Origin: Bacteroidota bacterium
GTDB lineage: Bacteria; Bacteroidota; Bacteroidia; Bacteroidales; WCHB1-69
DNA length: 44,200 nt
Assembly (NCBI GenBank): GCA_029570835.1
Contig: JAKPTX010000092.1
Span: 1 to 44,200, forward strand
Direction: 5' to 3'
The notes beneath the pieces were generated by a model that was given only the letters and a program-made list of their open reading frames with translations, ran no database searches and was not told where the DNA came from. The translations under genes were made by a program, and so were the position numbers. Every line of letters begins with the position of its first letter. Position 1 is the stretch's first letter. Shown in pieces: positions 38,670 through 41,735 of this stretch.

Positions 38670-38837
38670 GACATTATAATAAATTTGGGCTAAAGCCCTT
38701 GGGTTTCGGGGGGCAATCTTAATCCACGCCCTAAAGAGACGTGGCAATTTATGTAATTGAATGTCAATGAATTATATTCTGAAATAGCTGAATAAAATAA
38801 TTCTAAATTCTAATTTCTAAATTCTAAATTTACGATT

Positions 38838-38865
38838 CGTAATTCGTAATTCGTAATTCGTAATT
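38838..38865 (+). repeat. CGTAATT heptamer array, about four units
   Basis: Four units of the CGTAATT/TAATTCG heptamer preceded by a degenerate ACGATT. The inverse of this heptamer (AATTACG x2) is at the left end of the island. Confidence 0.9.
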
Positions 38866-38870
38866 GAATT

Positions 38871-38923
38871 CCTTCTACCTTCTACCTTCTACCTTCTACC
38901 TTCTACCTTCTACCTTCTACCTT
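38871..38923 (+). repeat. CCTTCTA heptamer array, seven perfect units plus a partial
   Basis: Seven exact CCTTCTA units (38871-38919) followed by CCTT, then CATCTAG. On the minus strand the array is TAGAAGG and lies directly after the TAG stop (38929-38927) of the alanine-dehydrogenase-like gene. It is the longest perfect tandem repeat in the window. Confidence 0.95.
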
Positions 38924-38926
38924 CAT

Positions 38927-39619
38927 CTAGCCCCAGCAAAGGTCCAGCAGGTCTTTCCATGGCACTTGCGCATGGTCGGCAATGAGGGGGTCGCAGATGT
39001 TGCCGTAAAACAGATAGACGGAACTAACCAGCTCAGGATTCCATCGAACACTGTTTTTGAGGTTGTTGGTGTGAGAAAAGATTTGAATCAGAGAAGAGAG
39101 TAGAACTCCTAAGGCGTAGGTTTGATCCTGGAAACTATAGTTGCTATCCAAAATAAAGGGAAGAAAGAGCATCCCATTTCTGTCTTTGTATCGATTCAAG
39201 GCAAGAGCACTGACCTTTAACTTGTACAAAATCTGGGCCATGGTATGATCAATAGAATCCGTTTCAACACAACTTAACAAGATCTGACGTTCTCGCATAA
39301 AAGGAATCTGATCATCCGTGAAAGGAGCGTACTGAATCAAGACTTGTGACTTGCTGATCATGTAGATGGGGTTATCGCATAACTCCACACCTGACTCGGA
39401 AAGCATGAGATCACTGATTTGATAAGGCTTTCCAAAACCACGCTCTACCATGACATGCAAACCGCTCTCTACCAAAATACCCAGTTGTTCCACTGTAATC
39501 AAAAGCGGATCTTCAGGATTTTGGTTCTTTAAAAAACCAATACAATACTGGCAAGTAGAGGAGTCAAGTGTCAACTCTTGGGCAGCAGGGTCAATATAGG
39601 AGTCAGATTGGTTGTACAT
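38927..39619 (-). CDS. Alanine-dehydrogenase-like protein lacking the NAD-binding domain, probable pseudoenzyme
   Basis: 230 residues. Residues about 27-160 resemble the first half of the alanine dehydrogenase/transhydrogenase catalytic domain (ITVEQLGILVESGLHVMVERGFG, then VLIQYAPFTDDQI, QILLSCVETDS, LKVSALALNRYKDRNG). Residues about 166-230 resemble the C-terminal return of the same domain (SSVYLFYGNICDPLIADHAQVPWKDLLDL). The Rossmann domain of about 170 residues that normally sits between them is absent. The catalytic Lys of the LK-AP motif is Gln96, the following active-site His is not present, and the substrate Arg near the N-terminus is replaced. Full-length relatives in Bacteroidota are about 400 residues and are often beside tsaE, as here (15-bp gap). 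The frame is intact, so it may be a maintained non-catalytic protein, or a decaying gene. Comparison is from memory of the family. Confidence 0.75.
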   Translation of the reverse strand: MYNQSDSYIDPAAQELTLDSSTCQYCIGFLKNQNPEDPLLITVEQLGILVESGLHVMVERGFGKPYQISDLMLSESGVELCDNPIYMISKSQVLIQYAPFTDDQIPFMRERQILLSCVETDSIDHTMAQILYKLKVSALALNRYKDRNGMLFLPFILDSNYSFQDQTYALGVLLSSLIQIFSHTNNLKNSVRWNPELVSSVYLFYGNICDPLIADHAQVPWKDLLDLCWG

Positions 39620-39634: not shown

Positions 39635-40057
39635 TTAAGATTCTAAGTAACAGATCACCTCGCGGGTGTCCGGGGATAGTGGAATGATTTTGACTACAAC
39701 ATAGGGAGGTTTTATCAGATGATCAATCTTTTCAGGCCACTCAATAAAACAGTAATGACCGCTCTCAATATAATCATGAATCCCCAGATCGATCACTTCT
39801 TGATCCTTTTCAATACGGTAAAAGTCGAAGTGATATATCGGTTCCTGTTGTTGGGTCCAATATTCGTTGATAATCGCAAAAGTGGGACTGGTAACACCGC
39901 TGACCACGTCCAATTGGTGGCACAATTCCTTGATCAGCGTAGTTTTTCCCGCCCCCATTTCTCCATAAAAAAGATAAACCGATTCCTGAGGATACAATTC
40001 AAGTATCGCTTCGGCGATATCTTCAATATTATCTAATGTAAGTATAAAATTATTCAT
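39635..40057 (-). CDS. tsaE: tRNA threonylcarbamoyladenosine biosynthesis ATPase TsaE
   Basis: P-loop ATPase needed with TsaB, TsaC and TsaD for the t6A modification of tRNAs reading ANN codons. 140 residues from ATG 40057. Walker A is YGEMGAGKTT (31-40), followed by the family blocks SGVTSPTFAIINEY, IYHFDFYRIE, DLGIHDYIESGHYCFIEWPE and a C-terminal strand. The start overlaps the end of the upstream kinase gene by 8 bp. An ATG at 40099 would add 14 residues lying inside the kinase gene and is not conserved in style. Other t6A genes are not in the window. Confidence 0.95.
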   Translation of the reverse strand: MNNFILTLDNIEDIAEAILELYPQESVYLFYGEMGAGKTTLIKELCHQLDVVSGVTSPTFAIINEYWTQQQEPIYHFDFYRIEKDQEVIDLGIHDYIESGHYCFIEWPEKIDHLIKPPYVVVKIIPLSPDTREVICYLES

Positions 40058-40901
40058 GATGTGCAAAGTTAAGCATAATTTGATGAACGGGTTGTGCAAC
40101 TACCTGAACAATCTGCATGTCCAGATTTTGGGCGGCTTGTTTTAGTTGTTCTTGAAAGTGGAAACCGAGTGAACCTACAACATGCCATGCTATAGATTCT
40201 GTTTTGAAATAGCGTTTCTGCTCCTCAAAAAAATGAGTAAAGTTCAGTGTTACAATTTGTTGCACTTCAGGATTGGCAATCTCTTTTTTGAGAAAAAGAG
40301 GAATGGTTGCCATCCACTTTTCCGGTTCAATATCGCGATACAGAAGATGTAATACCCGGGCTTTGTCCACCTCGAATTCACTTTCAAAACGCTCTTTTAA
40401 GGAGTCAGAAAGCACTCCTTTGAGGTAATATTGTAAAAAGAGCTTTCCCAAATAGATTCCTCCTCCTTCGTCGCCCAGCAGATAGCCCAAAGAGGGTACC
40501 AAATTGGTGATTTGCTCTCCGTCGTAATAACAAGCGGCGGAGCCGGTGCCCAAAATAGCGACATATCCCGGCTGATTTCCACACGTGGCATGGCAAGCTC
40601 CCAACAGATCGGAATGAACCGCTACAGTAGCCGTTGGGAAGAGGGGTTGAATGATCTCTTTTATTTTTTCCTGATTATGGAGGGGCATACATCCCGCGCC
40701 ATAGTAGATAATCTGCTCGATAGTCTCGCCCTTTTCTCCTCCAATCGTTGCAGCAAATTGTTTCATGATTCGCTCAATCTGCTTTTTAGAGGTGTAATTG
40801 GCATTGATTCCCTCTAGTTGAAACTGAGTTGTATCACCCTGTGAGTCAACTAAAAGAAATTCCGTTTTGGTAGCGCCACTATCGATAAAAACTCTCATCA
40901 T
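40050..40901 (-). CDS. BadF/BadG/BcrA/BcrD-family sugar kinase-like ATPase (N-acetylglucosamine kinase type)
   Basis: 283 residues, single ASKHA domain. Phosphate-1 loop FIDSGATKTEF (about 5-15), GINANYTS, AVHSDLLGACHATCG, phosphate-2/adenosine region ILGTGSAACYYDG and the GYLLGDEGGGIYLG block are typical of Bacteroidota GlcNAc-kinase-like members. It has no iron-sulfur Cys pair, so it is not an acyl-CoA dehydratase activator despite the family name. Likely salvages an amino sugar from peptidoglycan or glycans in the cytoplasm. It lies 3 bp after nadE and overlaps tsaE. Start at 40901 or at the next ATG (40898). Confidence 0.85.
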   Translation of the reverse strand: MMRVFIDSGATKTEFLLVDSQGDTTQFQLEGINANYTSKKQIERIMKQFAATIGGEKGETIEQIIYYGAGCMPLHNQEKIKEIIQPLFPTATVAVHSDLLGACHATCGNQPGYVAILGTGSAACYYDGEQITNLVPSLGYLLGDEGGGIYLGKLFLQYYLKGVLSDSLKERFESEFEVDKARVLHLLYRDIEPEKWMATIPLFLKKEIANPEVQQIVTLNFTHFFEEQKRYFKTESIAWHVVGSLGFHFQEQLKQAAQNLDMQIVQVVAQPVHQIMLNFAHHE

Positions 40902-40904
40902 ATT

Positions 40905-41735
40905 CTATTTCAGTAGTCTATTCCGTGCTATGGAATAGGGATTTTCTCTCTTGTAGGTAGAGTTTTTGAATTTTTGAATTAAAGGGTGATTCTCCCAGGA
41001 GTTATCACCGGTGAAGTAAGCCTGAAAGATTTGATCTGCCTGATCATAGTTATCTACTCCCAACTGTTCGCAGTCGTGGGAACTGATTCCCAGACCATCA
41101 ATCGGAGTGGCTTCAATACAGGCTTCCAATGCAGCTTTTTGTGCCTCATTGCAGGAAGCCAGAAACTGCTTTGCAACGCGATATACCTCAGTTTTCCACA
41201 AGTGGAATAGGGGAGCGTAGTCGCCCACATCACCGTGCAGAGTCCAGAAACCGGTGAGATACTCGGTATAATTATCGGTGCCAATCACGATGCCTCCCTC
41301 TTTTTGAGCTAAATCGTAGATCATCATCATCCGCATTCTCGCTTTGATATTCCCCAGACGTAAACGGGTCCGCAAACTCTGATCCTCAACGATGATCCAT
41401 TTGCGAAACTCAAAATAGAGCGGTGTCAAATCCAGATGCTCAAACTGAGTACAAAACGCTTCGCCGATTGCAATGGAGCGGGCAATCTCATCCTCCGGAT
41501 TAGTCTCTATGGTGATCGATCTTCCTATCAAAGGAATGCCGTTTTTTTTGCAAACCGGAGCCAAAAGAGCCGCACAGAGTGCACTGTCAATTCCTCCCGA
41601 TACACCCAAGACCAAAGCCTTGAGACGGTATGACTGAATATATTGTTCTACCTCACTTTGAATGGTATCAATCACTCTATCAAGCTGATCGCTCTTTTCA
41701 ATCAATGGGAAATAGGAAGAATCGGGTGTTTTCAT
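40905..41735 (-). CDS. nadE: NAD+ synthase, ammonia-dependent type
   Basis: Amidates deamido-NAD with ATP to give NAD+. 276 residues, no glutaminase domain, so ammonia is the nitrogen source. The ATP-pyrophosphatase loop SGGIDSA is at 46-52; GTDNYTEYLTGFWTLHGDVGDYAPLFHLWKTEVYR (split here by motif: GTDNY, HGDVGDYAPL, WKTEVYRVAK) matches the substrate-binding core; ATPIDGLGISSHDCEQLG follows. It is the first gene of nadE-kinase-tsaE-ald-like, with a -7 box 23 nt upstream. Confidence 0.93.
   Translation of the reverse strand: MKTPDSSYFPLIEKSDQLDRVIDTIQSEVEQYIQSYRLKALVLGVSGGIDSALCAALLAPVCKKNGIPLIGRSITIETNPEDEIARSIAIGEAFCTQFEHLDLTPLYFEFRKWIIVEDQSLRTRLRLGNIKARMRMMMIYDLAQKEGGIVIGTDNYTEYLTGFWTLHGDVGDYAPLFHLWKTEVYRVAKQFLASCNEAQKAALEACIEATPIDGLGISSHDCEQLGVDNYDQADQIFQAYFTGDNSWENHPLIQKFKNSTYKRENPYSIARNRLLK

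Follow-up and report, generated by a model that had tools for sequence, protein, structure and literature searches.

The window, a stretch of 44,200 nucleotides from a Bacteroidota bacterium of the WCHB1-69 lineage, contains a short gene whose product appears to be a conserved, non-catalytic descendant of alanine dehydrogenase (AlaDH) from which the NAD-binding domain has been removed. The protein fails every defining feature of alanine dehydrogenase that we examined, and domain-deleted pseudoenzyme is, judging by its sequence, the most apt description of it. We tentatively propose that it is made together with TsaE and works through protein contacts with TsaE or with its complex, a reading that we prefer to the others considered here and hold at somewhat less than even odds. 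A whole inserted cofactor domain has gone from a two-domain dehydrogenase, and what remains is folded, by prediction, and selected. The loss apparently goes back to a single event; its sequenced descendants number 72 distinct proteins, and full-length relatives live on within the same family.

A substrate-binding domain without its NAD-binding insertion

The gene occupies positions 38927 to 39619 on the minus strand and is an intact frame of 230 codons from ATG to stop; the intact frame and its length had been stated in an earlier, preliminary description of this DNA, which named no strand. Residues 42–146 of its product match the AlaDh_PNT_N family (PF05222) with 37.2 bits against a Pfam cut-off of 30.4, and by that cut-off the short protein is a member of the AlaDH/PNT N-domain superfamily. 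No other Pfam family is found in the 230 residues at E ≤ 1; in particular, the NAD-binding domain PF01262 is absent from the short protein at this threshold. The NCBIfam models for alanine dehydrogenase (TIGR00518; 13.1 bits, cut-off 391.85) and for the transhydrogenase alpha subunit (PRK09424; 23.8 bits, cut-off 383) are not reached.

Sixteen short relatives were aligned (A1) to build a profile, which hits solved alanine dehydrogenases (9unz, 8hye) with a whole-profile E value of 1.4e-17 and does so in two stretches: profile positions 27–153 fall on chain residues 2–126, and positions 168–229 fall on chain residues 309–369. Against the solved enzymes the second stretch is weak when taken alone (i-Evalue 0.018), whereas full-length relatives within the family match the C-terminal part more firmly (E 1.4e-8 and 1.8e-8). 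The NAD-binding domain of the Mycobacterium tuberculosis enzyme is described as comprising residues 129–308 (PMC4691113). In the alignment with full-length relatives, the gap extends over about residues 179–345 of a 407-residue protein, and about 167 reference residues are deleted in the short form. According to the alignments and the profile match, the seam at which the NAD-binding domain is missing lies within residues ~152–170 (39110–39166, minus strand); it had been placed near residues 158–168. By alignment, the C-terminal segment that follows (residues 171–230; 38930–39109, minus strand) corresponds to AlaDH residues ~309–371 and includes Cys209 and Cys228. The two-stretch profile match, the alignment gap and the PF05222 score above the cut-off bear out the earlier view that two segments of the AlaDH domain are joined here with no Rossmann domain between them, and there is likewise support for descent of the short form from an AlaDH/PNT protein of two domains that lost the inserted NAD domain.

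An AlphaFold2 model computed on A1 is a compact fold with a mean pLDDT of 86.4 and a pTM of 0.82, in which a helix is predicted for residues 163–184, at the seam or just after it. Comparison with the PDB returned the fold match to alanine dehydrogenase that had been anticipated: in the predicted model, the N- and C-terminal segments together build the substrate-domain fold (Z 24.5 to 8hye over 202 residues, rmsd 2.8; Z 24.1 to 2vhx over 203 residues, rmsd 3.0). A short protein from another genus gave a similar result (pLDDT 88.7, pTM 0.83; Z 25.6 to 8hye over 203 residues, rmsd 2.5). By prediction, the retained domain is thus complete and folds without the domain that was once inserted in it. 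The N-terminal tail (residues 1–23; 39551–39619, minus strand), which precedes the start of the solved AlaDHs, has a pLDDT below 50 and is likely disordered. Full-length relatives have at their N-terminus an extension of 27–43 residues ahead of the solved-AlaDH start, with a P-Q-E-E motif (Pro in 46, Gln in 42, Glu in 53 and Glu in 48 of 57 proteins). The extension measures 22–56 residues in the short proteins, and the motif is partly kept there (Gln in 57 and the first Glu in 31 of 72).

Distribution and descent of the short form

We searched 104 genomes belonging to the window's family with the short profile at E 1e-6; 78 gave matches, of which 75 have the short form and three a full-length gene, and 26 gave no match. 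The short form is found in genera g1, g2, g4, g7, g9, g11, g13, g14 and g17, a few copies being cut by contig ends. The full-length frames, of 410–411 residues, lie behind tsaE in genomes G007, G016 and G028 (genera g6 and g15), and in six genera no sampled member has a match. The closest relative of the window protein, with 84% identity, comes from its genus-mate G001. Presence of the short form in 75 of the 104 family genomes rules out an assembly artefact or a strain-level deletion, and conservation across the family excludes chance.

Wider samples of the order and of the phylum matched in 241 of 295 genomes at 1e-8 and in 321 of 395 genomes at 1e-20, respectively. Among the matches listed, those from the order sample outside the family are full length but for three shorter frames, none of them an intact short form, and the phylum sample has no contiguous short match beyond the window's own; weaker short forms might exist outside the family beyond these listed matches. 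Candidates for independent short forms in G128 and G351 (order) and in G707 (phylum; 255 residues) were not counted because their frames run into a contig end, nor was G132 (order), in which the match is spread over two overlapping frames. Within the family, G068 carries two short copies (L077 and L078) on separate contigs, each behind its own tsaE. The second copy may stem from another organism, the listed contamination of this genome being 7%.

In a tree of 47 short and 52 full-length rows over 233 shared columns, a single branch with an SH-aLRT value of 100 parts the short from the full-length proteins; the tree is the product of a quick search with midpoint rooting and rows thinned for redundancy, and the window's branch in it is long. 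From this tree, the NAD domain was apparently lost once, in a single lineage within one family of Bacteroidales. A TsaE tree, which has few columns and long branches and offers a hint only, separates the full-length (g6, g15), the gene-less (g3, g5, g8, g10) and the short genera from one another, except that gene-less g16 groups with the short ones.

The dN/dS ratio between the window gene and its G001 counterpart is 0.118 (dN 0.087, dS 0.734). Ratios were computed by the Nei-Gojobori method for 168 pairs at 60–99.5% identity, which share history and are not independent; 13 pairs gave no usable dS, and the other 155 range from 0.020 to 0.260 with a median of 0.114. The 56 pairs with dS below 1 have a median of 0.109. 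The short form is under purifying selection: it is a maintained protein and no decaying deletion. The preliminary description had suspected more than a simple deletion, and the low ratios (0.118 against G001, median 0.11 over pairs) together with the presence of the short form in 75 of 104 genomes agree with it. It had also considered that related strains might carry a full-length gene at this place while the short copy evolved neutrally. The former holds, for a full-length gene lies behind tsaE in three family genomes (g6 and g15); the latter does not, for the short copies are not neutral.

Residues specific to the short clade have become conserved as well. Of the 72 short proteins in one MAFFT alignment, 59 have Cys203, 52 have Cys209, 61 have Cys228, and 47 have all three, whereas the 17 full-length proteins compared carry mainly Leu, Thr and Met at these positions. 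These clade-specific conserved residues arose after the deletion. The window protein has Leu203, Cys209 and Cys228, and five of the 72 have none of the three cysteines. A number of g11 copies (L016, L090, L095 and L099–L101) have an altered or shortened C-terminus. Constraint is possibly relaxing in them.

Active-site positions

We compared active-site positions, in M. tuberculosis numbering and in one MAFFT alignment, between 57 distinct full-length relatives and 72 distinct short proteins. The full-length set is non-random, 40 members having been picked from the listed best matches of the order search and the rest from earlier searches. The short set excludes identical sequences, the incomplete L018 and L102, L031 (a copy of G001) and L133–L135, which are not short forms of the window's family. 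The Arg15 position is Arg in 57/57 full-length versus 2/72 short proteins, the Lys75 position is Lys in 55/57 versus 60/72, and the His96 position is His in 24/57 versus 1/72; the Asp270 position, Asp in 53/57 full-length proteins, is deleted in 72/72 short ones. Mutations are described as showing that His96 and Asp270 are essential in AlaDH (PMC4691113). Because the NAD domain is gone together with Asp270, and because conservation at the Arg15 and His96 positions has been lost, the short protein should not be an NAD-dependent dehydrogenase.

The window protein itself aligns Gln96 (codon 39332–39334, minus strand) with Lys75 and has no His at the His96 position. Replacement of the catalytic Lys and loss of the His had both been reported for this gene, correctly, but they had been read as a joint loss with the domain, which does not hold across the relatives: the Lys is kept in 60 of 72 short proteins, and only 24 of 57 full-length proteins have the His. 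Gln at the Lys75 position occurs in three short proteins, namely those of the window, of G001 and of one g11 genome, and the 12 short proteins without Lys comprise nine from g11, two from g1 (the window's genus) and one from G068. Since it is confined to so few short proteins, the change from Lys to Gln is a local one and no part of the domain-loss event. The His96 position is already not His in 33 of the 57 full-length proteins, a fraction that is no unbiased estimate because most of these were top-scoring matches; catalysis may thus have eroded before the domain was lost. Outside the order, His is present at this position in two of the 11 proteins sampled in other orders of the class, the remaining nine having Gln, and in eight of nine genes from the phylum's other classes. 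Among the AlaDH-like proteins whose genes lie behind tsaE (L019–L030, L136–L181, L188–L207), His96 is often absent, and for many of them the annotation as a dehydrogenase may be wrong.

A gene fixed beside tsaE

Directly upstream of the short gene, across a gap of 15 nt, lies tsaE (39635–40099, minus strand; PF02367, 124.7 bits). As listed, the tsaE frame begins at a TTG that lies within the gene upstream of it, and an ATG at 40057 yields the usual length of about 140 residues. That upstream gene encodes a BadF/BadG-type ATPase (40050–40901, minus strand; PF01869, 33.8 bits) and is preceded by nadE for NAD synthase (40905–41735, minus strand; PF02540, 124.8 bits). The neighbours named previously, tsaE and nadE, are both present, and the BadF-type gene adds to them. 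On the other side, just past the stop codon of the short gene, positions 38798–38924 hold 7-base tandem repeats (CCTTCTA in 7.7, ATTCGTA in 4.4 and AATTCTA in 4.6 copies).

We examined the short-form loci of 73 of the 75 genomes, leaving out G089 and G113. In 72 of the 73, tsaE is immediately upstream; in the remaining one, G081, the contig extends only 90 nt beyond the gene on that side. The orthologs beside tsaE for which a search had been proposed thus exist in numbers, and the gene is fixed at this place, as one would ask of an accessory of TsaE or t6A. The tsaE and short frames overlap or lie at most 30 nt apart in 59 of the 73 genomes, with distances from -62 to 214 nt over all short loci. 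An 852-residue open frame in G111 looked like a fusion of tsaE with the short gene; since an ATG 13 nt past tsaE gives the short gene a start of its own, we read this as an accidental open frame. Downstream genes vary among the 15 short loci compared. Upstream, the BadF-type gene is present in at least 31 and nadE in at least eight of the 73 genomes, both counts being bounded by flank length and by single-sequence searches.

Of the 57 order-set genomes with a full-length gene, 36 have tsaE next to it and 21 show no neighbouring tsaE; outside the order, the two genes adjoin in ten of 11 genomes from the class's other orders and in none of nine from other classes (with flanks of about 1.6 kb or less). 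Since full-length relatives also sit behind tsaE, the link to tsaE predates the domain loss and outlived it. Among family genomes without the gene, 13 of the 17 checked have a strong tsaE, which implies that TsaE does not need the short gene. Four of the 17 are also without a strong tsaE, so part of the absences may reflect missing contigs.

Discussion

How did a protein of this kind come about? It descends from a full-length AlaDH-like protein, whose gene lies behind tsaE in much of the class. By alignment, tree and structure prediction, the inserted Rossmann (NAD-binding) domain was excised, apparently once, between the helices that join both domains, and a self-contained substrate-domain fold was left. 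The short gene is presumably co-transcribed with tsaE, and its product might bind TsaE or a TsaE-containing complex and thereby tune its amount, its oligomeric state or its activity. What points to TsaE is that the gene order outlived the loss of the NAD domain; we draw the contact from this one observation. With moderate confidence, we suggest that the retained domain carries its function through protein contacts, most simply with TsaE or its complex. The binding or scaffold role suggested in the preliminary description stays conjectural. Escherichia coli TsaE (YjeE) is described as an ATPase that is strongly activated by TsaD-TsaB and whose activity tracks its monomeric fraction (PMC4330362); conceivably, then, a binding partner could tune it.

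Several observations count against TsaE as the partner. As described, E. coli TsaE binds TsaD-TsaB with ATP and without such an extra protein (PMC4330362). Operon neighbours can persist for the sake of co-expression without touching each other. Moreover, adjacency to tsaE is missing in 21 of 57 full-length genomes and in all nine outside the class, and tsaE occurs independently of the gene. Because the BadF-type gene is also upstream in at least 31 of the 73 genomes, TsaE is not the sole candidate partner.

Other functions can be imagined for the retained fold. The protein could conceivably be a sensor, with the old substrate domain retaining affinity for alanine, pyruvate or some other small ligand and signalling its presence to a partner: the domain that was kept is, by its predicted fold and by the described architecture of AlaDH (PMC4691113), the substrate-binding one, and 60 of 72 short proteins retain Lys at the Lys75 position. 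Such sensing is unlikely, however, given that Arg15 and His96 are kept in just two and one of the 72, that the window protein has lost the Lys too, and that the other wall of the ligand cleft is described as being formed by the NAD domain (PMC4691113), which is absent here. A new role for the cysteines, as a metal site, a redox switch or a disulfide, would account for their frequency at positions 203, 209 and 228 (59, 52 and 61 of 72, jointly 47) where Leu, Thr and Met predominate in the 17 full-length proteins compared, but we consider it distinctly unlikely, since the window protein has Leu203 and five of the 72 do without any of the three.

We see still less reason to regard the gene as a functionless, slowly decaying remnant that is retained just for lying behind an important gene. 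The 26 of 104 family genomes without a match, including all sampled members of six genera, and the C-terminally shortened copies, mostly of g11, do speak against uniform constraint. Yet part of those absences may be missing contigs, four of the 17 gene-less genomes checked being without a strong tsaE as well, and dN/dS ratios of 0.02–0.26 (median 0.11, 155 usable pairs), frames that are intact across most of the family, and conserved clade-specific residues gained after the deletion make decay very improbable. Finally, the short protein might be one half of a split enzyme whose NAD-binding half is encoded elsewhere, the removed domain being an independent fold and PF01262 matching in 102 of 104 family genomes, 93 of them above the cut-off. 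Nearly all of these matches are weak and partial, for instance in proteins of ~760 residues. Among short-form genomes, only G001 (1.2e-56), G023 (9.2e-22), G113 (8.8e-22) and G066 (2.6e-14) have a match stronger than 1e-10, and each of the four lies in a protein that has both halves itself: a transhydrogenase-like alpha subunit in G001, as read from its translation, and proteins of about 320 residues in the other three. The best match of the window's own genome (8.3e-7) is in a protein whose translation reads as FolD. The PF01262 search of the 104 family genomes found no NAD-half partner common to the short-form genomes, and the short protein does not preserve the catalytic positions, all of which leaves a split enzyme barely credible.

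The short protein can be seen as a natural minimal version that isolates whichever part of the tsaE-linked AlaDH-like proteins is important for the cell. This raises the question of whether many of the alanine-dehydrogenase-like genes of Bacteroidia encode that enzyme at all. We think it rather doubtful, though conceivable, that in much of Bacteroidia the tsaE-linked 'alanine dehydrogenase' is a t6A accessory, which would have lost the His first in many lineages and the NAD domain later in one family while keeping a TsaE-linked function. In the open-licence literature, we found no paper that links alanine dehydrogenase to TsaE/YjeE or to PorX, and none that describes the short protein.

How does the short protein compare with known systems? 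With L-alanine dehydrogenase (M. tuberculosis Rv2780, PDB 2vhx/2voe; also 8hye and 2eez) it shares the substrate-binding domain in both its segments, but it has no NAD domain, does not preserve the Arg15, His96 and Asp270 positions, and adds an N-terminal tail. The full-length tsaE-linked proteins of Bacteroidia (~405 residues) likewise lie behind tsaE, have an N-terminal extension and can be aligned over the retained domain; unlike the short form, they have the NAD domain, Arg15 (57/57) and Asp270 (53/57). The transhydrogenase alpha subunit (PntA domain I) has the same N-domain fold (Z about 20–21), yet it contains the NAD domain, and the short protein falls below the PRK09424 cut-off. The closest named phenomenon that we found is domain atrophy, in which an enzyme likewise undergoes a large natural deletion and the remaining protein is retained, although the term, as described, concerns partial domains: core elements of one domain are lost and functional sites stay mostly untouched (PMC4432964). 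In the short protein, by contrast, the inserted domain has disappeared in its entirety, the second domain remains complete (202 residues aligned), and active-site residues are lost.
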